Shown here piece after piece: positions 472-63,806 of a stretch of DNA of 64,000 bases. The first letter of the stretch is position 1; each line of letters opens with the position of its first letter. The notes under the pieces were generated by a model. The model was not told the origin of the DNA and ran no database searches. It saw nothing but the letters and a program-made list of their open reading frames with translations. Source of the stretch: Physcomitrium patens (Eukaryota; Streptophyta; Bryopsida; Funariales; Funariaceae); NCBI RefSeq assembly GCF_000002425.4, contig NC_037266.1, positions 2,910,007 to 2,974,006 of the forward strand, read 5' to 3'. Made by a program: the position numbers and the translations under genes.

Positions 472-1027
472 TGTCACGGACATAATCATGTAAGCTAATA
501 ATTACATATAGAAATAGGTAGAAGTAAGTAAAAGTAGGTGAAAGTAAGTTAATTCTATAATATTTAATATAGAAGCTTCCTAGAAATTTCCTAGACGCTG
601 CTTTGACTTCATAGGTGTCTTTAATTGACTTTTTTGGATTAGAAATGTGGTCAACAAGTTGGCCATGTGCCACACATGTTGTTAGCTTGAAGATCAAGCT
701 AACTATGTGGCCCACACGTAGAAAAACTTGCCTTGTAAGTCAAGGCATGTGCCCTACAAAGTCAACACATATTGGAGGTCCTATAGAACGTCGCTACGTA
801 GCCCCTAGTTAGAGAGTATATATAGAGACAAGAGTGAAGGCTTCTTCACTCTTGTCAACTCTTTTCTTGCTTCTAGTCTGTTTCAAGGGTCTCTAGTTTT
901 CTTTTGGCAATAGCCATTCCAATTTCTCTTTCAATATATATACTTGTTTATATATATTTTGTTACCTCTCTTTGAGTGAATGCTCACTTGTTTGAATTGT
1001 TTTTCCATTGAGTTCTTATCCTTGACA
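472..1027 (+). mobile_element. Solo LTR of chromovirus family 1
   Basis: A 556-bp solitary LTR. It begins TGTCACGGACATA, ends CTTGACA, and is flanked by a perfect 5-bp target duplication, CCTAT (467-471 and 1028-1032). It matches the 3' LTR of element C (27302-27853) over its whole length. Inside it are two GAAnnTTC heat-shock modules (572-579, 583-590), a 10-bp-stem hairpin (681-703), a TATA box (817-824) and a putative transcript start at about 849. It was left by recombination between the LTRs of a once full element. Confidence 0.9.
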
Positions 1028-2024: not shown

Positions 2025-2547
2025 GGGATATATATCTATTGTAATTATTACCTAGGTAATATGAATAGGTAGAATTAAATAAAAATAGATTAATTTCACA
2101 ATACCTTCTAGAGAAGCTTCTTAGATACTCTTTTGACTTTACATATATTTGTAGTTGATTGTTAAGTTAGAAACTTGATCAACAAGCTATCCATGTATCA
2201 CATGTATTAGTAGCTTGTGGAATAAGCTAACTATGTGGCATCCATATAAAAAACTTGCCTTGCAAGTCAACATACATGTCATACAAAGTCAACACATTTT
2301 TGTAGGTCCTATAGAACATCTTCATATAGATCCTAAATAAATAGTATATACAAAGACAAGAGTGAAGCCCTCTTTATTCTTATCAAATCTTTTCTTACTT
2401 CTAGTCTAGATTGAAGAGTTTTTAGTTCCCTTGTCTTTTGGCAATAACTATTCTTATTTTCTTTTTAATATACATACTTTTCTATTTCTATTTCTTTGAG
2501 AGAGTCTCACTTATTTATTTGCTTTCATTGAATTCTTGTCCTTGACA
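2025..2547 (+). repeat. 5' LTR of chromovirus B
   Basis: LTR of family 2, ending CTTGACA at 2541-2547. It aligns with the 3' LTR at 9945 and with both LTRs of element E. TCTTATCAA at 2378-2386 lies where the transcript should start. Its complement TTGATAAGA follows the LTR end after two bases (2550-2558). The outer terminus is worn, so the left border is approximate. Confidence 0.75.
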
Positions 2548-2549
2548 AA

Positions 2550-2558
2550 TTGATAAGA
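2550..2558 (+). promoter_or_regulatory. Candidate self-primer binding site of B
   Basis: TTGATAAGA lies two bases after the LTR end and is complementary to TCTTATCAA in the R region of the same LTR (2378-2386). The arrangement matches that of elements E and G and resembles the self-priming system of Tf1-like chromoviruses. A worn tRNA-Met-like motif at 2569-2579 is the alternative primer site. Confidence 0.5.
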
Positions 2559-5500
2559 GTACACTTATAATATTAGAGATTTGTCTTTTGTCAATTAAGA
2601 GTGGATTATCTTTTTTTTCTTAATAAGACATAAGTGTATTAGAAGTTTTGGATTACCTTCTTCTAAACTAATATTATTCTTAGTATTTTCTTCATTTTCA
2701 ATTCCTCTCTTTTGCTTGTCTTTAGTGTTATTAGACATTTTTTTTCTTCTAAATGTTGTCATGACAAAGCTTCTTGAAATAAAGAGTGTAATTGCATAAA
2801 TGCAAGAACAATTGAGAAAGTTAATGCTTGCAGTGCAAAAATTCAATTTATCACCACCAACAGCAATAAAAATAGCAAAAAATAAAATTACAAACATGAT
2901 TGGAAGGACTTAAATATCTATATCAAATCACATCTCTTTTTTTATAAAAGAATATCCTTCCAATATTTAAAAACTTAGAATTGACTTACCCGGGAAGTTT
3001 GATGGCACAAGATCTAAGTTTTGAAGATTCATCAATCAAGTACAATTTGTAATTGAATTTCAACCTTAAAACTATCGAATGTCACAATCACAAGTTAGAT
3101 TCATTAATACACTTCTTTCAGATTTAGCATTATCATAGTTTTCATCTTTTTTTGAAAGACAAGATCCAATATTAGATAATTTGGAGGTTTTTATGGCAAA
3201 ATTTTGATCTATGTATGGAAAATATGATGTAATTTGAATTGAAACTAATAAGATTTGTATCTTGTAATAAGATAATCAATCATTGATATCATATGCTTTA
3301 TAATTTTGACAACTAGTGATTGATGTCAAGTAGGATGATGCTGCTTTTATCAAATAATTTCTCTATGGATTATAATATGAAATAAAGAAATTGATGCTCA
3401 ACTTATCTAATCCTCAGACATTAAGTCAAGCAATTGGCTTTGTTGTAAAGTATGACAATCAGCTTTTTGAGTTTCAATCTAAAATCATATAAGAGAATCT
3501 CCATGTTATTATAATTCAATGATAATATCAATAACTTTTCAATCTAAATATTTGGAAGTAGAAGACATGCAAATTGATGTGGTATATTTTAAACCTCTTA
3601 TTAAATAAGAAAAGACTCATTGTTGTTAAAAAGGATTATATTTATAGTATATAAAAGATAAGCACAGTGCTCAATATTATCCAAAGAAATAATATAATTA
3701 TAAAATGAAGAGTTCGATTGTTAAAGATGAAAAAATGTTGAAAAATAAATTTGTCTACTGCAATAGGGACTATGTGGCTAGAATCTTATAAAAATAAAGG
3801 TCCTATCTTCTCTTTAGAATCTTCTTTTTATTTTATAATAGATATATATTTAGGACCTAATAATCATAAAGCCTTTGCTTTGATAGATTCTAAAACTTGG
3901 GCTTGTTTCTTAGATGAAGAGTTTGTTAAAAGCCATAGAATACCATTAATACAAAAAACTAAATTCGTACATGTAGAAGTCATAGATAGCCATCTATTAT
4001 CTTTTGGAGATATTATTTATGAGACACTTTATATAGATGTAGCAATAAATGGTTATAATAGTTGCATAATTTTTAATATAATTGGGTGTCTTTTTAATTT
4101 CGTCATTTTAAGTTTATTGTGGCTAGAAAAATATAATCCTCTGATAGATTGGATTTTTTGTAAACTTGATTTTTCTCAGAGCATTATTAAGAGTTTTATA
4201 AAAAGTTATGAGTTTAATATAGCCAAACATGTACTTGTAGGTGCAAAAACTTTCTTGTATGTTGCATAAGAAGGATCACCTTTTGTTATTTATGCCACAC
4301 CCATTTTTCATGATAGAAAGACTTTAAGTGGCATTCTGAGATAATATTAAGATTTTCAAGATATTTTTGAAAAAAAGAATACAGATATTCTCCTAGAGCA
4401 TCATCCATATGATTGCTCAATTGACCTTAAAGAGGGAAGCCAGCCACCATTTGGTCCAATCTATAATTTGTTACGAAATGAATTTGCTAAATTCAAGAAG
4501 TACATTAACAAGAATTTGGCCAAAAATTTCATATACCAATTAAAATCTCTTGCAAGAGTTCATATCTTATTTGTGAAGAAATAAAATAAATCACTAAAAA
4601 TATGCATAGATTATTCAAGACTCAATAAGATTATCATCAAGAATAAGTATCATTTTTTTTTAATATCTTGACTTTTTGATCAACTAAATGAAGCTAAGAT
4701 CTATACAAAAATAGATCTACAAAGAGAATATAATTTGGTCCTCATTAAAAAAAGAGATAAATGGAAGATTGCATTTTGAACAAGGTATGGACACTTTGAA
4801 TATAATATCATGCCTTTTGGACTCACAGATGCACCAACTGCTTTTTAACATCTTATAAATGATGTTTTTTGTGATTTTTTAGATGATTTTATTATCTATT
4901 ATTTAAATGATATTTTAATCTATTCTAAAAATATAGAAAATCATAAAGCTCATGTTTGTCATGTATTACAAAAACTTACAAACATGAGATTGTATGCCAA
5001 GTTGAAAAAGTGTGTATTCTACACCACTCAAATTGACTTCCTAAAATATATCATTTTCAATAAAGGACTTATAATAGATCTTAAGAAGATTCAAACTTTT
5101 ATAGGTTAGAAGATTTCCAAAATAGTAAAAAATGGGAAATATTTTTTGAACTTTACCAATTACTATTGGATCTTTATCAAGAATTTTTTTCAAGTTGCAA
5201 CTCTTCTTATATATCTTACATGCAAAGACAAACTTGATTAGAGCAAAAAAGCTGTAGTATCTTTTGAAGTATTGAAGTTGGTATTTATTTTTGTACCAAT
5301 TCTGCATTATGTCAATTTTTCCAAGCTATTTTTTATAGAAATATATACATCAGATTTTGCTATGGATGTTATTTTGTCACAAATAGGAAAAAATGACAAG
5401 CTCTATCCAATAGCTTTTCATTCTAGGAAATTCTTAGCAGTCGAGACTAATTATAAGATCCACAATAAAGAACTTCTTATAACAATAGATTCCTTTCAAG

Positions 5501-27301: not shown

Positions 27302-27853
27302 TATTACGGACATATTCATGTAAGCTAGTAATTACATATATAAATAAGTAGAAATAAATAAAAATAGATAAAAGTAAGTTAATTCTATAGTATTTAGTAT
27401 AGAAGCTTCTTAGAAGCTTCATAGATGCTGCTTTGACTTCATAGGTATCTTTAATTGACTTTTTGGATTAGAAACATGGTCAAAAAGTTGGCCATGTGCC
27501 ACACATGTTGTTAGCTTGAAGACCAAGCTAACTTTGTGGCCCTCACGTAGAAAAACTTGCCTTGTAAGTCAAGGCAAGTGTCCTACAAAGTCAACACATA
27601 TTGGAGGTCCTATAGAATATTGCCACGTAGCCCCTTGTTAGATAGTATATATAGAGACAAGAGTGAAGCCTTCTTCACTCTTATCAACTCCTTTCTTATT
27701 TCTAGTCTAGTTTCAAGAGTCGTCATGTTTTCTAGTCTTTAGCAATAGCCATTCTAGTTCAATATATTATCACCTTTGAATGATTTCTAAGTATTTTCGA
27801 GTGACACAAGAGTGTATTGAGATTATCCTTCTTTGGAGTTCATGTCCTTGATA
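27302..27853 (+). repeat. 3' LTR of chromovirus C
   Basis: A 552-bp LTR of family 1, matching the solo LTR at 472-1027. It has two exact GAAGCTTC modules (27402-27409, 27413-27420), the GTTAGCTTG hairpin (27511-27533), TATATATA at 27646-27653 and CTCTTATCAA at 27678-27687, the putative transcript start 32 bp after the TATA box. It ends CTTGATA. Confidence 0.88.
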
Positions 27854-29540: not shown

Positions 29541-32500
29541 TTTAATTGTGATTTTTGAAGTTCTTTAAAGTCTTATTTATTGTGAGGAGTAGATGTTTTT
29601 GTTGTTGCTGATGTTAGGATTTGATATCATATAATTCCATTATTGCATCTAATTGTTGATGTAGTTTTGCTCTTATTTGTTATTAAGTGCATTGATAATC
29701 TTGGAGGTTCTTAGATACCTTAGAATGATATTTTAAAATACTTATATTTTATTATTTTACTCATTTATATTATTTATTATCTAATATTGTGGTTTTATTT
29801 GATAAACTTCTCTTGAGATCTTCTTATACTGATAAGAAGTATTTTGTGAGGTTAAATATATTTTATAAAAGAAAAGGATGATTGACGAGTGGTAAAGCTT
29901 ATACAAGAGGTTTAGATAAAATATAAGACTTGTGAGAAGTCCTATAAGTATAGTTGAGAGTGATTAAAGAGTAATATCACTAGTTCATTTATAAAGAGGG
30001 CATTCTGGATTTCTAAGGTAGCAACATTTTCTTGTTGATTTTGAAATCTCTTTCTTTTCTTTTCTTGATTTTCTTTGATACACCATTTTTTTAGACATGG
30101 CTTCAAGTGAACGTGAAGATTTGAAAGTAATTGAGAAATTTAGGGGTAACAATTTCTACCATTGGAAGAATAAAATGGAGCTTTTGTTGGTTTTATTGGA
30201 CTTTTGGAACATTGTGGATGAAAGTGAAGAGCCTTTAAGTGACAATACTGATGTCAAGGTGAAAAAAGAATACAAATATTGTGAAAGAAAGGTATTTGGT
30301 ATGATTACATCAAATTTGGATGATGCCAATTTTTGACATGTAATTACTTACAATAAATCAGCAGAAGTATGAGAGATTCTTTGCAACATCTATGAGAATA
30401 GAAACCTTATCAACATTCTATGGATTAAGAAGAAGTTCTTAATAGTAAAGATGGAAGAAAGACATGACTTCATTGCTCATGTCAATAAAGTAAAAGTACT
30501 TACAAATCAACTAGCAGTTGTTGACAAGCTAGTTGATGATAATGAAATTAAATTGACATTGCTCATGAGCCTCCCAAAGTCCTACAACTATCTTATTAAA
30601 GCATTGGAGTCTATCAACATGAAGGAGCTTACTATAAATTATGTCACATCAAGACCTGTCCATGAAGTGAGCAAGAAGAAAGAAAAAGAACTCCAAAGTG
30701 ATGATTTGGCTTTGTTTTCAAGTCAAGATAAAAATAATTATTTTCATCAATGTTATAATTCAAAAAATAATATAAAAAATTACTATATTTATAAAAAATG
30801 AAATTACTTTATTAGAAATTGCTACAAAGTCAAGAAAGGAGATAAAGAAATTATAAACAATATTCATGATAACTTTGATGGAGATGACTATGCTTTCATA
30901 AAAAATGAAGGAGCCTCCATGGCTGCTATGTCCAATTGGATTATAAATTTGGGTGCTACTAAGCATATGACACCATAAAAATGTTCATTTGACACTTATG
31001 AAGAAATTCTAGCAACTAAAGTTTGATTGAAAGCCAATGGCATAGTAGAAGCCATTGAAATTAGATCCATTGTTGTGAAAATTATTGTGAAGGACCAAAT
31101 GAAGAAAATCAAGCTAAAAGAAGTCTTACATGTGCGAAAGATAAAAAAGAACCTCCTTTCAGTAAGCAAACTTGTATCACATGGTTATAAGATTCAATTT
31201 GATAAGAACAGATGTTTTGTGAAAACATTAGGTAGACAATATATTGCCAAAGGCCTCAGAGATAGCAATCTCCACTTCAATTATAAAAAGGTGAATGAAA
31301 AAGAAGTAGTAGCATTTGCTGATTTTCCACAAGGTCAAAACAAGTTTGGAATTTGGCATTAACAACTTCATCATTTGAATGCCAAAAGCATGAAGGAGCT
31401 CTAATTCATAGTAAGTGGCTTAGATCTTGGTCAATTCAACCATAATACCTTGTCACTTACTTTTGGAGATTGTATACAAAGTAAACATCAAAGGGCTTCA
31501 TTTTTAAAAAGAGTTGCAACAAATATAAGCAAATTATTAGAAATTATATATTTTGTTATTTGTAGACCAATGAAAATACCATCAATTAGAGGATTAAGGT
31601 ACTTTGTTATATTTATTGATGATTTTTCAAAGAAAGTATAGATTAATATCATTAAAATTAGGAATGAATATTTTTGAAGGTTTAAGAAGTTTAAGACTCT
31701 TATAAAAAAATAATGTGAGTATAACTTCAAAATATTACACATAGATAATAGAATTAAGTACATGTCAAATATTTTCATGAATTCTTAAAGATTCAAGGTA
31801 TTGCAAGACAATCCTCTACTTCCTACACTTTACAATAAAATAGAGTTGTTAAAAAAATAAATCATATCATTGTGGAGATGACAAAGAATATGCTTTATGT
31901 ACAAAATTTTAAACATGAATATTGGGCGGAAGCAATAGAAAATGTAGTTTATACAAGGAATAGGTATTCAACAAGTGCAACTTACATCAATGACTCTACA
32001 AGAAGCTTGAAGTAGTAAGAAACCTTATATTTCATACATAAAGATTTTTAGATGCATTGCCTATACAAAGGTATCAAATTGTATGAGGTCCAAACTTGAT
32101 GAAAAAGGTACAAAATATGCATTTGTTGGATATTGTGAGGATATCAAGATATAGAGGTTGATATGTTTAGAAAGCAAGAAAATCATCAAAAGTTGTGATG
32201 TAGAGTTTTTGGAGTATTGAAGTACTTATGAGCACTTGGAGATATGTGCAAGTCAGAGTAATGATATGTTTGTGGATACATCTTTAATTTTAGTAAAAAA
32301 ATAAATAAATAAAAGAAAAAAGATGATAATATTAATAATGGTGGAAATTCAAATGAAAATGAAGAACTAAAGAAGGTAAACCATAGTGTGTCTATAATTG
32401 ATAGAACAGTAATGAATACAATAAAGATGTTAAAAATGATGATGATGATACAAAATACCAACTCTTGAATGTGAAAAAGCAAATTTTAAATGAAAAGAAG

Positions 32501-51560: not shown

Positions 51561-54500
51561 AGCAAACAAAGGCTCTTGAATCAAATTTGCTGGTTATTGA
51601 TTTTCCATCTCCTCAGTATCAAACTACAAAGAAGCTACAAATAAAGATTGAAAGTAGAATGTTATCTTGCTTAGATCTTCTTTCTTTTATAAGGAAGGTT
51701 TTCATCTTAATTTTGATGGATGTCGTTGATGAAAAGCCTCCACCACCTTTTTTTGCATTTGCAAGATTCTTTATTGGCTTCCATGTGTATTCACTAATAT
51801 CATATCCATGCCAATTTATAAGATATTCTAATTTATTTTGACGCCGCTTTGAATCTAAAACTTCTTCCACTTCAAACTCTTTATTATTGTCCACTTCTAT
51901 AAGAGGAAGTAGAGCTTATATTCTTCTTAGTATGTCCATTGTCTTATATGGTTCAAGAAGAGATACGTAGAATACTAGATGGATTTTCATTGACTCTAGT
52001 AGGTATAAACAATATGCAACTGGATTGATTTGTACAGAAATAGAAAATGGTCTAAGCCTTTGATAGTCCTACTTGTCATAAAGACAAGTAGTCTTGATAT
52101 TGCAATGAAGTAACCATAACTTGTCACCCACATGGAATGATAGTTGTTCCTTTTGATAGACATCCGCATTGATCTTTTGTTGTTCTTGAGCTTCTTTTAA
52201 CTATACCTTCATTGTTGCATGTAGCTCTATCAAATGATTTTCTAAATCTTTTGCCACAGGATTATCAACTTTTGAAAAGTCAAAAGTATCAAGTTGTGGA
52301 TGATAACCATAATTGACAAAGAAAGGTGTTTATTTTGTAGAAGAATGTACCATATTATTATAAGCAAACTCTGCCAATGGCAAAAGAGTTGTCCAATCAT
52401 CTTGTTAGTAGTTGATGGTACATCTTAAATACTACTCTAAAACTTGATTAAAATGCTTTGTTTGTCCATCAATTTGAGGATAGAATATCGAAGATAGTTT
52501 CATATCTACTTTTAGAATCTTGAAAAGAGTGTGCAAAAATCTTGATACAAATTAAGTTCCTCTCTCTGATATAATATCCTTAGATAATTCATGATAGCAA
52601 TAGATATTGACAGGAAAGAGCTTAGTTGTTTCTTTACCTGTGATAGATTTTGTACATGGTACAAAATGTGCTATCTTGATAAAACGATCTACTATCATGA
52701 ATATAAAGTCATAAGAACTTGAGATTGGAAGATCTATTATGAAATCCATAGAAATAGAAGACCATGGTTGATCTCAAATAGATAATGGCTGAAGAAGTCC
52801 GTAAGGTCGATGACAAGGAGTTTTTAATCTTGAGCAAATATTACAAGATTGTATAAAATCTTTGACTGCCTTCCACATTTGTGGCCACTAAAAACCCATG
52901 GATATTAGTTCCAAAGTTTTATTATATCCAAAATATAGTGCTACTGAAAAGTCATGACAAGCTTGAAGAACACGTAATCGAGCTTCACCTCCTGGAACAT
53001 ATAAGTGTTCCTCAAAATATAGTAGATTGTTCTTGAATTCAAACTTAAAAGTAGCATGAGACATTGAAGGATTTTCCTTAATATCACAAATAAGAGGATC
53101 AAAAGACATACTTAACTGAACTTGCTTAATGAAAGTTGAATCAAAAGTTAGTATTGATTTTATTGCTCAAAGATGAAGATGCTTTGGCTTCAAGAGAGTT
53201 GTCCATTGCTGATGAAAAGCAACATCTCCTTCCTTTGGTGGAAGGTAAGATCGTCTAGAGAGTACATTTGACAAACCTTGATGTTTTTTCAGTAAATAAT
53301 TGAAGTTGAATTTGAATCTTCACAAAGATATACTTCAACAAGCTTGGCAACGATTCCAAATACATGCTAACATAAAATATTCAAGGTTCTTAAGATCCGT
53401 ATATACGGTGACTAGACTAAAAGCACTTTCTAGATAATGGCATCATTCTTAAAACGAATCCACAATTATAAGAAGTTCTTTGTTGTAGATCTTGTAGTTG
53501 ATCTTCGCTGTTGAAACTTTTCTGGAATAAAAAGCTACCAGGTGAAGTTTATCATTTGTTCCCATTTGTGACAATATGGCACTTAAAGTAAAATTTGGTG
53601 CATGTGTTTCCATAAAAAATGGCTCAAAAAAATCAACGCAATACAAGATTGGTGCAGAAACAAAGGTTGGCTTCAAAGCTTCAAATGCTACTTTTGCTTC
53701 TTGATTCCATTGAAGTTTGTCTTTACAAGTCAAACATATAATTGGAGCTGCAACTTGAGAGAAGTCTTGGATGAAGATCCAATAGTATTTAATAAATCCC
53801 AAAAAGCATTGAAATCTCTTACTGTTTTTGAGATCTTCCAATCCATAATAGCTTGAACTTTCTTAGGATCCATCATAAGTCCATCATTTGAAATGATGTA
53901 TCCTAAGAAGTCAACTTGAGTAGTGTGAAATACACACTTTTCTATTTTGGCATAGAATCCCGCATCTCTTAGTTTTTGTAACACACAACAAACATGAAGT
54001 TCATGTTCTTTTGTATTCTTAGAATAGATTAAGATCTTGTCTAGGTAACAAACAATAAAATCATCTAAAAATTCCTGAAAGATATTATTCATTAGATGTT
54101 AGAATGTTGCTTATGTATTTGTAAGTCCAAAAGGTATGACATTGTATTCAAAATATCTATACCTTATTTGAAATGCAGTCTTCTATTCATCTCCTTCTTT
54201 GATGCATATCAAATTGTATGCTCTTTATAGATCTATTTTTATATAGATTTTAGCTTGATTCAACTAATCAAAGAGTCCAGATATCAAAGGTAGCAAGTAC
54301 TTATTCTTGATGGTGATTTTGTTAAGTCCTCGATAATCAATACATATCTGCAATGATCCAACTTTTTCCTTCACAAATAAAATTGGAGCTCTTGCTGGAG
54401 ATTTGGAATGATGTATGAAGTTCTTAGCCAAATTCTCTTCAATATATTCCTTGAGTTTAGCCAACTTATTTTGTAATAAATTATAGATTGGTCCAAATGG

Positions 54501-56378
54501 TGGTTGTACTCCTTGAAGGTTAATTAAGCAATCATAGGAACGATGTTTCGAAAGAGTATCCACATTCTTCTTCTCAAATACATCTTAAAAATCTTGATAT
54601 TGGCTTGGAATGCTACTTAAAGTCTTTCTACCAATAGAAACAAGTGTGGCATGAATGACACAAGGTAATCCTTCTTTTGCAGCATGCAAGAAAGGACTTG
54701 CACCTACAAATACAGGTTTTATTATACTAGACTTATGACTTTCTACTTGATTAACTATGCTCTTAATTATACTTTCAGAAAAGTTAAGACTACAAGAAGT
54801 CTAATCTATTTTAAGGTTATATTTTTTTAGCCATGGTAAATCTAAAATGACTGAATTAGAGGGAGATCTAATGATATTAAATATTATAAAGCTACTATGA
54901 TAATTAGTTGCTACTTCTATAGGAAGAATTTTATGAATAACATCTCCTAAAGACAATGGACGACCATTTATGACTTCTATATGAAGAGGTTTAGTTTTAT
55001 TCATTAAAAGTATGATATGTCTTTTAACAAATTCTTCATCTAAGAAACATGCTGAGGCTCATGAATCTAACAAGGTAAAGGCTTTGTTATATTTAGGTCT
55101 TAAAATAATATTTATTGTATAAGAAGGAGAGGATTCTAAGGAAAGAATAGGACCTTCACTAAGTGTTGTACAAGGTTCTAGCAACATAGTCCCTATTGTA
55201 GCTAGACAAACTCATTTTCCAACATACTATCTTCTTTGATAGCTGCACTCCTCATTTTATGGTTGCGTTGCTTCTTTGGACAATGTTGAGTAGTGTATTT
55301 AGATTCTCTACAATATAAGCATAATCCTTCTTAACGACGACTAGTCTTTTCTTGCTTAGTAAGAAGTTTGAAATATACTACATCAATTTGCATATCATGT
55401 ACTTTGAATGTATGTGTTGAAGAGATGTTGGTGTTGCTATTGAATTATAGTAACATTGAAGTCCACTTATACGGTTCTCATATCAAAATTCAAAAAGACA
55501 ATTGTCACACTTCACAGCAAAGTCAATTGCTTGACTCAATGTTTGAGGATCAGATAAATTGAGCATTAATATTTTTACCTCATATTATAATTCGTAGAGT
55601 AATTGGCTAACAAGTGTAGTATCATCTCACTTGATATTAGTTGTAAGTTATTGAAACTATGAAGCACATAACGTTATTGATTGATTGTCTTGTCGTAAAA
55701 TACAGATCTTCTTGGTTGCAACACAAATTGCATCATATTCTCCATACATGGATTGAAACTCTACCAAAAAAATCTCCAAATTATCCAATATTAGATCTTG
55801 TGGTTCAAGAAAAGATGAAAAGGATGATAATGCTGAACCTAAAAGAAGCATATCAATGAATCTAACTTGTGATCCTAGAGTTGGATAACTTTGGAGTTAA
55901 AGTTTAATCATAAGTTGTACTCGATTGATAAATCCTCTAAACTTTAATCTGGTACCATCAAACTTTTTGGGTAGGATAATTCTTGGTTCTCTAACATTGG
56001 AAGGATGTTCCACCATAGGAGAAGGAACATGATTTGGTGTAGATGTTGAAGCAGCTCCAAATATTTTTATATCTTCACTTCTTGCCAATCTTCTTACTCT
56101 CTGTAGTGATAAATTGAGTTGATGCATCATAAGAATTAACTCCCTCAATTGTTCTTGCATTTGTGCCATTGCACTCTTCATTTCAGCAAGTTCTATCATG
56201 ATAACACTTACAAAAGAAAAGATGTGTACTATCGCTCAAGAAAATAGAAGAGAGTACTTGAGAACAAAGAAAATACTAAAAATAATATTAGTTTAAAAGA
56301 GGGTAATCTGTAACTTCTAATATGCTTATGTCTTATCAAAAAAAAGGGATAATCCACTCTTAATCAAAATTAGATAAA

Positions 56379-56408
56379 GCTCTGATATTGTAATTGTAAT
56401 CTTATCAA
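56379..56408 (-). promoter_or_regulatory. Candidate priming sites of E
   Basis: Two bases inside the LTR, TTGATAAGA (56408-56400 on the minus strand) is complementary to the putative start of the transcript (56592-56583). About 20 bases further, AATATCAGAGC (56389-56379) resembles the usual tRNA-Met primer site. The first is favoured because its pairing co-varies with the LTR in element G. Confidence 0.5.
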
Positions 56409-56410
56409 TC

Positions 56411-56960
56411 TGTCAAAGACAAGAACTTGATAAAAATAAATAAAAAAATGATAATTTTTTTAAAGAAATATGATAAAATAGAAATAACTAAATATTTATA
56501 TTAATAAAGAAATTGGAATGGCTATTGTCAAAAGACAAGAAAACTAGAGACCCTTGAAACTAAACTAGAAGCAAAAAAGGAGTTGATAAGAGTGAAGAAC
56601 GCTTCATTCTTATATCTATATATACTATCTATCTAAGAGCTACATAGCGATGTTCTATAGGACCTCCAAAAACGTGTTGACTTTGTACAACACGTATCTT
56701 AACTTGCAAGGCAAGTTTTCTATGTAGGTACCACATAGTTAGCTTGTTCCACAAGCTACCAACATGTATGGCATGTAGTTAACTTGTTGACTAAGTTTCT
56801 AACCTACCAATCAAGTATAAATACATGTAAAGTCAAAGCAGCATCTATAAAGCTTCTAATAAGCTTCTTTAGAAGATATTATGAAATTTATTTACTTTTA
56901 CCTACTTCTATCTATTTATATCACTTAGGTAACAAATACAATAAATATATGTTTGTGATA
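56411..56960 (-). repeat. 5' LTR of chromovirus E
   Basis: A 550-bp family 2 LTR. On the minus strand its TATA box is 56624-56617 and the putative start CTCTTATCAA is 56592-56583, 32 bp from the TATA box. The hairpin with arms TAGCTTGT and ACAAGCTA is at 56738-56760. It ends CTTTGACA at 56411. Confidence 0.85.
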
Positions 56961-56965
56961 TTTGG

Positions 56966-58089
56966 TTTTTGTGCCATAGAATTGGATAGTAATATAAGAC
57001 TTTGTACTATAGATCATATTCCATGATTATTGAAATCTATGATATCAACCATCTCTGCAAACGCAATTGCCTCCTAAATGTTTGTAGATTTGTTAATTCC
57101 ACATCTTGTTAAACCACAAGTTTTAATCCATGTACAAACCAATCCATTATCTCTATCTTTAAAACATTGCTAATTTAAAAATATAGGAACTTAATTCAAA
57201 AGACATAATTTTACATTGACTTAGATTGTATAAGATTAACCAATTGATTGTGTGCTATTTTTTTTGCATTGATGGTCCCAAATTAACTCCTAAACTTGGT
57301 TTCAAATTCCTCTTAGTCACAAAATCCACTTTTAGCTTCATAGCTTTGAATTCAATGCCACTATCAAATTGTAGCTGTATCTCTCAAATAGCTAGTGGCA
57401 TAAATAGTTCTTTTGGTGGTGTTTGCCTCTTATAATTAAATGTATTATCACATGCTGAAGAACCATTAGCATACATCTTCTTGCCTTAAAATCTCAAAGT
57501 ATATATTAGGTTTACTTAATTTCAGCCTAATAGATATTAATTTCCTTGTGTTAGAGGCTTTTATTTTCTTTTGTATAATAGTTATCTAGCTTAAGAAATA
57601 TTATATCTGAGTCTCCATTTTGAATTACTTTGCCATTTCTCCCATGCTGCAATTTCATTATTAAACTTTGCTATTATAATGCCTTCTTTTCTACTAACTT
57701 ACTTTTTAAAAGTAATTTATGATAGAAGTAAAATAGTACTTCATGTAACTACAACAATTGACCTCTAATTGGATAGTAGCTAATAATACACTACTAAAGA
57801 ACAAACTAACACTTGTTTTGATATCATTAAAATAAGACTGGATGATTTCTAAGGTCTAAGATTCTTTCAATCCATAGCAATATAAATCTCATCATAACGT
57901 AAGACAACATAGATCAAAAAAAAATAAAAAATAAAAAATAAACAAAAGTAAACATAAAATATAAAATAAATTAAAAAATTAAAAATTAAATAGAATTGAA
58001 TAGAAATATACAAAACCAAACTTTACTAAGAAAAAGGGACCAAAGTTATATCTGACCAAATATCCAAATAGTCCTAGCCAATCTTAACA
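56966..58089 (-). mobile_element. Element H: LTR, primer site and gag of another Ty3 family
   Basis: The minus strand reads a possible LTR (58089 to about 57839, starting TGTTAAGATTGG), a worn complement of the tRNA-Met 3' end (57826-57815) and a gag relic (about 57480-57010) with wording such as CGLTRCGINKSTNI and EAIAFAEMVD, the kind seen in retrotransposon gag. Its gag is unlike that of G, yet its LTR abuts the purine tract of G exactly. Element E cuts it at 56960. Broken. Confidence 0.5.
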
Positions 58090-58139
58090 TCACCCCCTCT
58101 TTTAGCTTCGAGGTCTCTGAGAAGCAATATTATTGTGAA

Positions 58140-58500
58140 TCAGTACCAACACAAGAAAATGAAGATCTGTCGCATAACGTCTGCTATAAACTCCAACTGT
58201 TGTTCACAAGATAAGTGGTTCATCGATCCTTGAAGCCAACGGTAGTGGCCCACGCCTTCAACTTCTGACCAAGCATGAACTTCCATGTCTTCATTGTGAA
58301 ATTGTCCTGCAAACACGCCTTCTGGCTGACCATCGTAAGCAAGCTCGAACTCAAATACAATCATCAGTGATCGTTTACTCGATATCCTCCGTCGTCGTCG
58401 TGGTATAGGCAGTTCTTCATCTCGGGGTCGCCTTCATGAGCTAGTCGGTTGAGATAATCTGACTGGCATAGTATCTATCTCTTGGCTATCCATATCAGAA
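58140..58500 (-). mobile_element. Conserved post-chromodomain tail (copy in G)
   Basis: It reads RLSQPTSS, a short Arg-rich stretch (PRRRRRISSKRS), then a block with VFEFELAYDGQPEGVF and GHYRWLQGSMNHL near the end. The order and key residues match the tail of C, although most other positions differ. Family unknown. Confidence 0.7.
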
Positions 58501-61500
58501 GGCTATTGAAAAAATTCTACTTTATCAACTACGAGTTTTGGTGGTGCTCTCCCCTTTTCTTATATTCTTAGGTGAACAAGCTTCAGAAGGAAGCTATCGT
58601 CAAACTGCCTTAGGTTTATGAGGATGTTGTTGATGAAACTCCTGTATCTTTTGTGGCGCATTGGGAAGATTTTCAGTTGGTTCCCACGTTTGCTCATTAA
58701 TGTCGTAGCCACACCAATGAACAAGATACTCCAACTTGCCCTACCTTTGCCGTGAATCCAACACCTTTTCGACCTCGTATTCCTCGTGGTTCTCGATCTC
58801 AATACTAGGTGGCGGACATTGCACTCTTCCAGGAAAGGATGACTCTCGATAAGGCTCCAACAGAGAAACATGAAAGACTGGATGTACCTTCATAGAAGTC
58901 GGTAATTCCAGACGGTATGCCACTGGATTGATTTGCTTTTGGATGATAAATGGTCCCAATCTTTGATAGTCTAACTTATCATATGGTTGCTTGGTCTTGA
59001 TATTCCGTCAAAGAAGCCATATTTTATCTCCAATTTTGAAAGTAGGTGCTTGATTCCGAAATCTATCTGCAGACACCTTGTAGGATTCTTGAGCGCATTG
59101 TAATTAAAGCTTCAACGTAGTTTAAAGCTCTGATAGTTGCTTTGCAAGTCCTTCAGCTGCTGGATTGTTATTTGTTGACGGATTCAATAAATCAAGCTTC
59201 GGATGATACCCATAGTTAGCAAAGAATGGTGTGTATTGAGTCGACACATGGAGGGTGTTGTTATATACAAACTCGACTAGTGGCAGATATGCGGTCCAAT
59301 CATCTTGCTCATAATTGATGTTGCATCGTAAATATTGTTTCAAGACTTGGTTCACCCATTCCATTTGGCCGTCAGCTTGAGGATGGAAAGCCGAAGAAAG
59401 CTTGATATCCACCTTCAGTATCTCAAAAAGAGATCTCCAAAACTTTGATACAAACTGGGTTCCTCGATTTGATACAATATCATCTAGTAGTCCATGATAT
59501 CAATACACATTATCAAAAAAGAGCCTTGCTGTAACTTCACTTGATAATGTCTTCTTGCAAGGAACAAAGTGCACCATCTTTGTAAGCCGATCTACCACAA
59601 CAAAGATGCTGTCAAATGAGTTTGATGATGGCAGGTCTGTGATGAAGTCCATGGAAACTGAAGACCATGGTCAACGTGGAATCGGTAATGGTTGTAGAAG
59701 TCCATAAGGGCGATGTCAAGGATTCTTAGATCTTGAATAAATATCGCAAGAGAAGACAAAATCTTTCACATCCTTCTACATTTGGGGCCACCAAAAATCT
59801 CGAGAAATAAACTCTAAGGTCTTGTTGAATCCAAAATATCCCGCAGCTAGAAAATCGTGGTGAGATTGAAGAACTCGGAGTCGTGCTAGTCCTTTTGGAA
59901 TATACAATTGCTCCTCAAAGTATAAAAGATCTCCCTCCACCTTGAACTTGTTGTCATTGGTACGCTGCTTGATATCAATGGCTACTGGATCTTCAATGGT
60001 TACGGCATGTACCTAGTTCAAGAAGTCAGCATCAATTGACACAATAGTAACGCAAAGCCAAAATTGCTCTGGCTTCAACAACGTCATACATTGTTGATCA
60101 AACCCTGCTTCTCCAGCCTTTGGTACAAGATATGATCTCCTCGATAAGGCATCGGATAGTCTTTACTGCTTTCCAAGTTGATAAGTGATAACAAAATCGA
60201 ATCTAGATAGCAACATACTCCAACGAGCTTGACTTCGATTTAAAACTCGAGCCGACATGAAATACTCCAAATTCTTGTGATCAATATATATGGTCACTGG
60301 GTGTGCAGTTCCTTCAAGAAAGTAATGCCATTCTTGGAAAGAATCCACTATAGCAAGAAGTTCTTTATCGTGGATCTCATAATTGATTTCAGCAGCAGAG
60401 AACTTTCGAGAATAAAATGCAACCGGATGGAGCTTCTTATCTTCTCCCATTTGTGAAAGTACAGCTCCCAAAGCAAAATCCGAAGCATCAGTTTCTAAAT
60501 AGAAGGCCTTTGTAAAGTCTGGATGTACCAAGATCGGAGCTGTAGTAAATGCCGTCTTCAGGTCTTGAAACGCCTTCTCTACTAGAGGTCCTCATTCCAG
60601 CTTATCCTTTCATGTCAATCGAGTGAGAGGAGCAGCAACTTGAGAGTAATTCTTGATGAAGATTCGATAGAAGTTAGCAAAGCCAAGAAAGCATTGTACG
60701 TCTCCAACCGTCTTCAGAACCTCCTAGGACACGATTGCTTCTACCTTCTTGGGGTCCATCTTTAAGCCTTCCATGGTCGCAATGATCCCCAAAAATTCCA
60801 TCTCCATTTGTTGAAATAAATACTTCTCCAACTTGGTATATAGTCCTCGCTTGCGTAGTTTCTCCAAGACCAAACAAACATGCTTTTCATGCTCTTCCTC
60901 ATTTTTGGAGAATATCAGAATATCATCCAAGTAGATGACAACAAAATCGTCAAGGTGCTCCCGAAAAATGTCATTCATCATATGTTGGAAGACTGTTGGA
61001 GCATTGGTAAGACCAAAAGGCATGACATTATATTCAAAATGGCCATACCTTGTACGGAATGCTATCTTCCACTCATCTCTTTCCTTGATTCGTACGAGGT
61101 TGTAAGCTCTCCTTAGATCAATTTTTGTAAAGATCCTTGCACATCCAAGTTATTCTAAGAGACCAAAAATCAAGGGTAATGGGTAACGATTCTTCTTTGT
61201 TATCTTGTTGAGGCCTCGATAGTCCACGCACATCCGCAATGAGCCATCTTTCTTCTTCACAAATAAGATGGATGCCCCAGCTAACGATTTTGAATGACAG
61301 ATGAAGTTCTTGGCTAGGTTCTCATCGATGTACTTCCGCAACTCCGCCAACTCCGTTTGCGATAGATTGTAGATTGAGCCAAAAAGCGGTTGTGCTCTTT
61401 CCTACAAGTCTATGGCGCAATCATATGGTCGGTGTTCCGATAGCATGTCGGCATTTTTCTTTTGAAACACGTCTTTAAAATCCTTATATTGCTCCGGTAT

Positions 61501-63364
61501 ACTTGCTGTCGAGATCTTCTCTCCAGTAGTTGGAGTCGCATAAATGACAAATGGTGTGCCTTCTTTAGATGATCTTACAAACGTTCTTGCTCTAATGAAT
61601 AAGGATTTCTCTATTCATGGTTTTTTACTAGGCTTGCTCTTGGATGATTTTGTGAGAAAGGTCATCTTCCGCAACCTCCAATCTATGGATAGGTTATGCT
61701 TTTTCAACCAAGAAAGACCAAGAATAATATGATTTGATGGGATTCTAATAATATTAAAAATAATATGGCTACTATGGCCCTTAAACATCACTTCTATAGA
61801 TTCTGATTCATGGGTGACACTACTAGACAATAAAGGTCGTCCATCTATGACCTCAACGTGAACAGGTTTGGATTTTTGTACTAAAGGGATCTTATGACAC
61901 TTCGTAAACTCTTCGTCTAAGAAACAAGCAGATGCTCCTAAATCTAATAATGCTAATGTTCTCAGTTTTTGAGGGCCAATAAACAAAGGGATTGTAAAAC
62001 AAAGGGCAGGTTGAGCGGAAAGAAAGGAATTTGATTGTTATTGCGATATTTCACTGTCTAGCCGCATAGTTCCTATTGTAGTTGGGCATCCTCGTTTTTC
62101 TGAACAAACGTGCCCATGGTCCTGACAATGCGTCGATTTTGCTTCTTGGGACAGTTTCCAACTTTGTGGCCTTCTTCACCACAATATAAGCATAGACCTT
62201 CCTCCATACGCCGCTTTTTTTCTTCTAGAGTAAGGAATTTGACACGTACCGCATCAATTTGCATGTCTTCTACCTCTGAATGTAAATTCACACTGCTTGC
62301 CGACATAGTTGAGGCGTGACGAACCATATGTTGTCTTGAGTTTTGGTCTTGGCGACGTTGGAATAGGCGGTTATCGCACTTCATAGCTTGGCTAATAGCT
62401 TCATTGAACATTCGCGGATCAGGAAGAGTTAACAATAAATCCTTCACATCGTCCCTTAAACCCCAATAGAATTGACTCATCAATGCTTCTTCGTCCCAAT
62501 TGATGTCTCATGTTAGTTGCCTGAAATCCGATGCATAGATTGATGTAGAGTGCATCCCTTCTCGTAGTCACCGGATCTTTGTTGTAGCCCATCGAACCTT
62601 GTCGTATTCACCAAATGCTTCCACAAATGCCTCCAAAAAGGTTTCAAAGTTGTTTAGTATGGATGATCGTTTCTCAAACAAAGGAGTAAACCATGATAGA
62701 GCTTGCCCTGTAAGTAAGGTTCCAACAAGCCCAACATGTGACTCCTCCGTTGGATAGCATTTGGGCTGTAAAATTGTTATCAATCTTATTTGATTGATAA
62801 ATCCTCGAAACTTGGAATGTGTGCCATTGAACTTGTCTGGAAGGCTAACTCAAGGCTCCTTATATTGTAGAACTAACGGTGATTGTCAAACCTGAGGCAA
62901 AGTTGCTTCTCTAAGTGTAGAAGTTTGAGGCTGGTGCAACCTAGATTGTGCCATCCCAGATACTCCATCATTATAAAGTCTTGCCACGACTCCTTCAATT
63001 TCTGCAGTTCTTTGTGATAATGTAGCGAGGGCATTCATGATAGCATCCAACTTGGACTCCGAACTTTCTGTCATATTAATGTCTTCGCCTCCAGCCATTC
63101 TAGGAGAAGGACAGAAATGACTCTATAAGAAGACAATATTGGTTTAGAAGAGGGTACTCCGCAACCTCTAAAACGCCTTAAGAGCTTCAAAAAAAGGGGT
63201 AATCCACTCTCTCCAAGAAGAATAAGATTCCAATATTAAAACAAAAGAAGTATCAGTTTAGAAGAGGGTAATCCGCAACCTCTAAAATGCTAATACACCT
63301 TCAAGTAGAGGGGTAATCCACACTCTAACGAGGAAGAAACTAGCTCTGATATCTAAGGTGAGTT

Positions 63365-63376
63365 CAATCTCGATAA
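63365..63376 (-). promoter_or_regulatory. Candidate self-primer binding site of G
   Basis: On the minus strand TTATCGAGATTG begins two bases after the LTR end. It pairs with CAGTCTCGACAA (63517-63506), the predicted first bases of the transcript: ten Watson-Crick pairs, one G-U pair and one mismatch. A tRNA-Met-like ATATCAGAGC (about 63353-63344) lies 24 bases further inside and is the alternative. Confidence 0.5.
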
Positions 63377-63557
63377 AGTGTCACGGACACAGAAATACAG
63401 GCTCGAGATCTAACAAGAAGTTCAAGAAGAACTGATAAGAACTAGATTAATCAGATGAATACAAAAACAACACCAGAGAGGTGAGCTAGAGCTCCAAGAG
63501 ATGTGTTGTCGAGACTGAAGAACTCTTCAACCTCGATTCCAATATATACTCCTATTT

Positions 63558-63737
63558 AGGAAGCTTCTCAAGCAACTTCTACCAACTAGGAAGCTTCTCA
63601 AGCGATTTCCACCAATTAGGAAGCTTCTCAAGCAACTTCCACCAACTAAGAAGCTTTTCAAGCAACTTCCACCAACTAAGAAGCTTCTCAAGCAACTTCT
63701 ACCAACTAGGAAGCTTCTCAAGCAACTTCCACCAACT
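63558..63737 (-). repeat. Six-copy 30-bp tandem array in LTR G
   Basis: Six exact-length 30-bp units (AGGAAGCTTCTCAAGCAACT then TCYACCAACT) with few differences. Each holds GAAGCTTC or a one-base variant. A partial seventh unit follows. The array lies in the promoter part of the LTR. Confidence 0.92.
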
Positions 63738-63744
63738 AGAAAGC

Positions 63745-63781
63745 TTCTAGAAGGTTCCAGAGACTTGCTTCTAGAAGGTTC
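63745..63781 (-). promoter_or_regulatory. Two perfect heat-shock elements in LTR G
   Basis: TTCTAGAAGGTTC occurs at 63745-63757 and 63769-63781. Each is TTC-nn-GAA-nn-TTC, the consensus for heat-shock factor trimers. Both lie upstream of the TATA box on the strand of element G. Confidence 0.7.
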
Positions 63782-63806
63782 TAAGGACTATGTCCCTAAC
63801 AAAGGG

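Follow-up and report, generated by a model that had tools for sequence, protein, structure and literature searches.

In the retrotransposon Tf1, the primer is formed by the first 11 bases of the element's RNA (PMC7175516). Similar behavior has been predicted in plants: PMC6317226 describes most plant chromoviruses of the Tcn1 clade (moss, clubmoss) as lacking a tRNA primer-binding site (PBS) and predicts that they self-prime, through a complementary stretch of 10 bp or more that starts 0–5 bp past the 5′ long terminal repeat (LTR). The other plant chromovirus clades (Tekay, Reina, CRM and Galadriel) are described there as not self-primed, with tRNA-Met as the usual primer. Here we analyze 64,000 nucleotides (nt) of the genome of the moss Physcomitrium patens (contig NC_037266.1, positions 2,910,007 to 2,974,006; the whole stretch is called the window below) and two retrotransposon families that it contains, f1 and f2. 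In both, an 11-nt word just inside the 5′ LTR pairs with an 11-nt word of the LTR itself. We conclude, with a probability of roughly 0.88, that f1 and f2 are two families of chromodomain Ty3/gypsy elements whose own RNA serves as the primer for reverse transcription and which very probably belong to the moss Tcn1 (Tf1/sushi) group.

Chromoviruses of nonseed plants have been described before. Physcomitrella chromoviruses were grouped with Tcn1 (PMC2864245), and a P. patens element was included in a comparison of chromoviruses with Tf1/sushi elements, a group that occurs in nonseed plants (PMC10085805). Chromoviruses with tRNA-Met PBSs are reported from Selaginella (PMC3350952). In P. patens, the chromodomain gypsy family RLG1 has 5092 complete elements and is expressed in protonema (PMC7466625); f1 and f2 would fall under this family. 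Self-priming in the group of f1 and f2 is already predicted in print (PMC6317226).

Paired words in the window copies

Elements A, B, C and E of the window belong to f1 and element G to f2. In B, E and G, the 5′ LTR closes with TTGACA or GTGACA; two bases further on begins a word complementary to a segment of the LTR. The relevant features are as follows.

2025..2547, + strand: 5′ LTR of B (f1), worn; from repeat copies
2345..2350, + strand: TATATA of B; from sequence
2376..2386, + strand: predicted self-primer word of B, ATTCTTATCAA; complement of the PBS
2550..2560, + strand: PBS of B, TTGATAAGAGT; complement of the LTR word
56411..56960, − strand: 5′ LTR of E (f1), end TTGACA; from repeat copies and sequence
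56617..56622, − strand: TATATA of the E LTR promoter; from sequence
56583..56593, − strand: predicted self-primer word of E and RNA 5′ end, ACTCTTATCAA; best PBS complement in the LTR, 29 nt after TATATA
56398..56408, − strand: PBS of E, TTGATAAGATT; two nt past the LTR
63379..63801, − strand: 5′ LTR of G (f2); from genome relatives
63543..63548, − strand: TATATA of the G LTR promoter; from sequence
63506..63516, − strand: predicted self-primer word of G and RNA 5′ end, AGTCTCGACAA; complement of the PBS
63366..63376, − strand: PBS of G, TTATCGAGATT (common f2 form TTGTCGAGACT); complement of the LTR word
848..858, + strand: like word in the LTR of A, ACTCTTGTCAA; no PBS found alongside
27677..27687, + strand: like word in the LTR of C, ACTCTTATCAA; no PBS found alongside

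The original prediction, that bases two nt past the 5′ LTR of B, E and G pair with an LTR word, holds at the places given. The 11-mers form 10 Watson-Crick pairs and one G-U pair in B, 10 of 11 pairs in E, and nine Watson-Crick pairs, one G-U pair and one mismatch in G. In each case the word is the best complement of the PBS across the whole LTR, leading the next best by 5 points in B, 3 in G and one (20 versus 19) in E. The same start word had also been assigned to A and C; C does carry ACTCTTATCAA, and the word of A is one base off.

AT-rich LTRs could yield short complements by chance or composition. Among 2000 dinucleotide shuffles per LTR, the observed score was equaled somewhere in the LTR in 10 (B), 79 (E) and 50 (G), so the worn window copies, taken without regard to place, leave some room for chance. 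Within ±2 nt of the real site, however, only 0, 0 and 1 of the 2000 shuffles did as well. Furthermore, exact 11-mers are the commonest words of the two families and differ between them by three compensated changes (see below). An origin by chance is hence next to negligible in our estimate.

Genome copies and the length of the word

Copies were searched in a single genome of 470 Mb (101 contigs), and all counts of genome places are lower bounds. The f1 pattern, TGACA-N17-TTACAATATCAGA, occurs at no fewer than 2021 places, and the f2 pattern, TGACA-N16..34-BATATCAGAGC, at no fewer than 1135, mainly f2. Among the 100 f2-pattern matches listed, 94 are f2 in register, three are f1, one is f2 with a shifted PBS and two are chance matches. 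The commonest words are TTGACAAGAGT (PBS) and ACTCTTGTCAA (LTR) in f1, and TTGTCGAGACT (PBS) and AGTCTCGACAA (LTR) in f2. Among the matches listed, the PBS begins two nt past TGACA in 100/100 for f1 and 97/100 for f2, and the f1 PBS, left free in a pattern with exact flanks, is intact in 87/100.

The limits of the pairing were profiled in 71 f1 and 68 f2 loci. Loci selected for variant PBSs (L001–L008, L069–L128) were excluded, and L211–L230 are not included. Within this sample, L151–L210 (20 f1, 40 f2) were picked by exact PBS, which raises the intactness of the PBS and not that of the LTR word, the latter never being a criterion. Positions 1–11 are Watson-Crick paired in 64–71 of the f1 loci and 58–68 of the f2 loci, depending on the position. 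Just outside, pairing falls to 12/71 and 12/68 at position 0 and to 5/71 and 0/68 at position 12; at isolated outer positions (e.g. −2 and 16), pairing returns in the majority of loci. A full set of 11 Watson-Crick pairs is present in 52/71 f1 and 39/68 f2 loci (58/71 and 48/68 when G-U is allowed). Within a range from 60 bases upstream of the LTR word to the PBS, no other segment complements the PBS as well as this word does in 70/71 f1 and 67/68 f2 loci. The predicted pairing is real, and the fall-off on both sides in both families points to a putative self-primer of 11 nt, rather than 9 or 12, as its natural unit.

A second copy of the PBS core lies in the f1 leader, about 68–70 nt downstream of PBS position 1 (L009–L038). 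The core, TTGACAAGA, is exact in 19/30 loci and matches at 8/9 bases in 10 more; it could be a decoy or an alternative site of primer annealing. In f2, the best match to the PBS core in the leader reaches 6/9 bases (28 loci).

Position of the word relative to the TATA box

A plant transcript from such a TATA box is expected to start at the opening A of the word. The distance from the start of TATATA to this A is 31 nt in B, 29 in E and 32 in G. In the profiled loci, it is 29 nt in 70/71 of f1 and takes a value of 30, 31 or 32 nt in 66/68 of f2, and the base preceding the A is C in 69/71 f1 and 62/68 f2 loci. In both families, the PBS is complementary to the RNA 5′ end predicted from the TATA box.

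Compensated differences between the families

The words of f1 and f2 differ at three positions, and at all three both sides have changed with pairing kept. The two PBSs match each other at 8/11 positions. An LTR word joined to the PBS of the other family forms on average 7.8–8.0 of 11 pairs, compared to 10.4–10.7 with its own. The covariation claimed earlier among B, E and G stands between the families and does not extend to B versus E or to copies within a family. As B and E both belong to f1, it amounts to one evolutionary comparison, f1 against f2.

Covariation within families was assessed in a sample in which variant PBS words are overrepresented, comprising 227 of 228 element loci (L068 was dropped as a chance match). 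In the PBS position-4 variants (L069–L080), the LTR word ACTCTTGTCAA is kept in 12/12; 11 of these carry G, giving a G-U pair, and one a mismatch (TTGCC). Single matched pairs occur in L088 and L222, not above chance. Many single changes in the words are C-to-T or G-to-A, as expected from decay after insertion.

A tRNA-like motif shared by the families

Both families carry a motif resembling a site for initiator tRNA-Met (tRNA-iMet).

56378..56388, − strand: tRNA-iMet-like motif of E, ATATCAGAGCT, without TGG; compared with tRNA-Met genes
63342..63352, − strand: tRNA-iMet-like motif of G, ATATCAGAGCT; from sequence

The sequence ATATCAGAGC is common to f1 and f2, 9 (f1) or 13 (f2) bases past the PBS. 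The initiator tRNA could accordingly be the primer, bound at the motif TATCAGAGC some 23–28 nt inside the element. We read two tRNA-Met genes in the genome (2 of 17 places), which we take to be initiator genes from their likeness to the plant tRNA; both end ...GCTCTGATA, before the added CCA, and TATCAGAGC is the complement of these last nine encoded bases. The match stops there, however: the bases opposite the CCA end are usually CAA (f1) or AGA (f2), not TGG, which would leave the 3′ end of a tRNA primer unpaired. As TGG is missing, the motif is not a normal primer site. In the commonest words of f1 and f2 alike, the PBS itself opens with TTG instead of TGG, and canonical CANNTGGTATCAGAGC was found at 18 places genome-wide.

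Nor is the motif invariant. By eye, ATATCAGAGC is altered in 21/100 among the matches listed, out of at least 2664 PBS-anchored f1 places. Seven of the 21 read ATATGAGAGC (e.g. f1 places G000:C1:985216, 1649008 and 3436203, among the matches listed), and because they share this form, a subfamily seems to have spread without ATATCAGAGC. In PBS-anchored loci the motif is intact in 17/20 f1 and 33/40 f2. We rejected tRNA-iMet as the primer for want of TGG, and regard its use as very improbable. As to whether the motif is better conserved than the PBS, the two are similar in f1 (79/100 versus 87/100 among the matches listed, with different anchors); f1 and f2 have the same motif, while their PBSs agree at 8/11 positions, a divergence that self-priming permits as long as the word is compensated. 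The motif may be part of the leader or left over from an earlier use of tRNA priming.

Weighing the self-priming model

Under self-priming, the first transcribed base would be the A that follows the LTR TATA box by about 30 nt, and nt 1–11 of the RNA would fold back onto the 11-nt PBS two nt past the 5′ LTR, a pairing that is seen in the sequence. By analogy with Tf1, RNase H activity of the reverse transcriptase (RT) encoded by the element would then cleave the RNA behind nt 11, leaving a free 3′ end for extension through U5. Plus-strand synthesis would presumably copy the primer RNA back into the PBS. The suggestion that this plant lineage may self-prime is supported by the 11-nt complement, its placement on both sides, the very large number of copies, the two compensated words and the lack of a TGG-type tRNA site.

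Alternatively, the complementary words may serve RNA folding (in packaging, dimerisation or translation), with some other, unrecognised primer, such as a half-tRNA, in use. Predicted folds of the 5′ leader are partly in keeping with this: of 11 loci, 5 include the primer:PBS helix in their minimum-energy structure, and in the other six it costs 0.7–8.9 kcal/mol. A TGGTATCAGAGC-type PBS right after the 5′ LTR was found in neither family, in a screen that left out half-tRNAs and other tRNAs. Yet the helix sits where a PBS should be, two nt past the LTR, and it spans 11 nt counted from the expected RNA 5′ end; no alternative PBS was noticed. We consider this explanation unlikely, if slightly less so than priming by tRNA-iMet.

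Several observations weigh against self-priming. The RNA start, taken to be the opening A of the word, is a prediction from the TATA box. Compensated double changes within families are not above chance: six in 141 f1 loci, against a shuffle mean of 5.33 (890 of 2000 shuffles reach six), and three in 86 f2 loci, against a mean of 1.36 (285 of 2000 reach three). None of 20 loci with PBS position-6 variants is compensated there. Helices like those of the Tf1 'pretzel', sought in f1 and f2 loci, gave no consistent result. The evidence comes from the genome of a single species, and the comparison is limited to two words, no further word having been found with patterns that require ATATCAGAGC. Lastly, PMC2864245 describes a Selaginella relative of Tcn1 with evidence of neither tRNA priming nor self-priming.

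Two of these searches can be given in more detail. A third PBS family was sought with three genome patterns (12, 46 and 22 places), and the matches were variant forms of the f1 and f2 words, apart from a few that were shifted or due to chance; because all patterns require ATATCAGAGC, families without it would escape. Among candidate pretzel helices is a crossing one of 7 bp, CTAGCTC:GAGCTAG, found in 24/27 f2 loci, and by our estimate such a 7-mer is not rare by chance in the search space. A different, non-crossing helix is present in 13/36 loci filed as f1 (one of which, L044, is a misfiled f2 copy). No covariation was seen in the candidate helices of these 27 f2 and 36 f1-filed loci.

A variable base next to the PBS

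The base after the 11-nt PBS (position 12) is unusually variable. In the 100 f1 matches listed it is A in 84, G in 14 and C in 2, making it the most variable of 17 free bases; in f2 it is A in 29, T in 18, G in 10 and C in 3 (first 60 of the 100 matches listed). We counted parsimony steps per column on a tree built without that column, for 68 f2 and 51 f1 loci. Position 12 in f2 underwent 16 changes, 11 of them between purine and pyrimidine, and by either measure ranks first among 223 columns (runners-up: 14 and 6), while the f2 PBS columns show 0–4 changes. Two results tell against a hotspot: f1 position 12 shows six changes, none between purine and pyrimidine, and ties for 4th–9th of 231 columns; and with the column kept in the tree, position 12 takes nine steps in f2 (tied 2nd–5th of 229) and four in f1. 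The columns that rank beside f2 position 12 in the latter analysis are mostly sites of mainly C-to-T or G-to-A change. Read from these alignments, position 12 looks like a mutation hotspot that is pronounced in f2, faint in f1 and possibly new. In a literature search with most subscription papers outside its scope, we found no report of a similar hotspot.

Self-priming itself might create such a hotspot, a proposal that we put forward tentatively and at somewhat below even odds. The RT would copy the 11-nt primer RNA into plus-strand DNA as far as the capped 5′ end and add an untemplated or cap-templated base, or else copy an RNA that starts one nt upstream, and the extra base would become position 12 of the new copy. 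The LTR base one upstream of the word is C, and a start one base earlier would also give G at position 12. Template-independent synthesis by the Tf1 RT is reportedly the subject of a 2012 paper in FEBS J. (cited in PMC8857657). If the proposal is true, the primer's length and 5′ end are recorded in thousands of genomic copies, and a position-12 hotspot could diagnose self-priming and primer length by sequence alone in any genome.

Coding domains and other features of the elements

The following coding pieces were identified.

51619..51915, − strand: chromodomain of E, stop-to-stop piece; Pfam Chromo, E = 1.3e-10
58600..58740, − strand: most of the G chromodomain, stop-to-stop piece; Pfam Chromo, E = 4.2e-13, profile positions 16–53
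58741..59007, − strand: SH3_Tf2-1 domain (integrase C-terminal) of G; Pfam, E = 5.4e-18
60724..61149, − strand: RT piece of G; Pfam RVT_1, E = 6.4e-30; top PDB matches 4ol8 and Ty3 7q5b

Pfam detects chromodomain pieces in E and G. For SH3_Tf2-1, RT, RNase H and the integrase zinc-binding domain, pieces were identified in C and G. The translations have F, W and Y (E) and Y, W and Y (G, over two adjacent pieces) at what we take, by analogy with HP1, to be the aromatic-cage positions of the chromodomain. No relative was found among the viral contigs searched.

The G LTR contains a 30-bp tandem array (63527–63766), mostly upstream of the TATA box, which perhaps consists of promoter or enhancer repeats. 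Two 76-nt repeats in the G leader (63137–63212 and 63251–63326, 114 nt apart) surround GGATTACCC-type motifs, and a third, related stretch lies in E (56286–56361); these repeats are possibly a packaging signal. Ty1/copia pieces (gag-polypeptide and Pol beta-barrel domains) lie between the chromoviruses, at 30373–31362.

Comparison with known systems

Many copies from one genome support the published prediction that a plant chromovirus lineage self-primes like the fungal and vertebrate Tf1/sushi elements, and the abundance of f1 and f2 could make the mechanism testable on RNA from a model plant. SM2-Galahad of Selaginella is likewise a nonseed-plant chromovirus with a group I chromodomain, but has an 11-bp PBS complementary to tRNA-Met directly after the LTR (PMC3350952). 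TAR-lineage Ty1/copia elements resemble f1 and f2 in their predicted self-priming in plants and differ in being copia elements, not chromoviruses (PMC6317226). Tcn1 of Cryptococcus and Tj1 of S. japonicus belong to a related group with proposed self-priming (PMC7175516, PMC4600332); their hosts are fungi, and we liken them to f1 and f2 by description, not by sequence. Tf1 of Schizosaccharomyces pombe shares the chromodomain, and its 11-nt primer length equals that of the f1 and f2 complement. For Tf1, a cut between bases 11 and 12 and a 'pretzel' of three duplexes are reported, whereas f1 and f2 are known from sequence alone (PMC7175516, PMC10085805). With the plant Tcn1 clade, f1 and f2 share a chromodomain gypsy organization and, as in most of that clade, the lack of a tRNA PBS, and no essential difference is apparent from the account in PMC6317226. 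To that account our analysis adds the 11-nt limits of the word, its spacing from the TATA box, the compensated differences of two families, a limit on the covariation and the position-12 lead.

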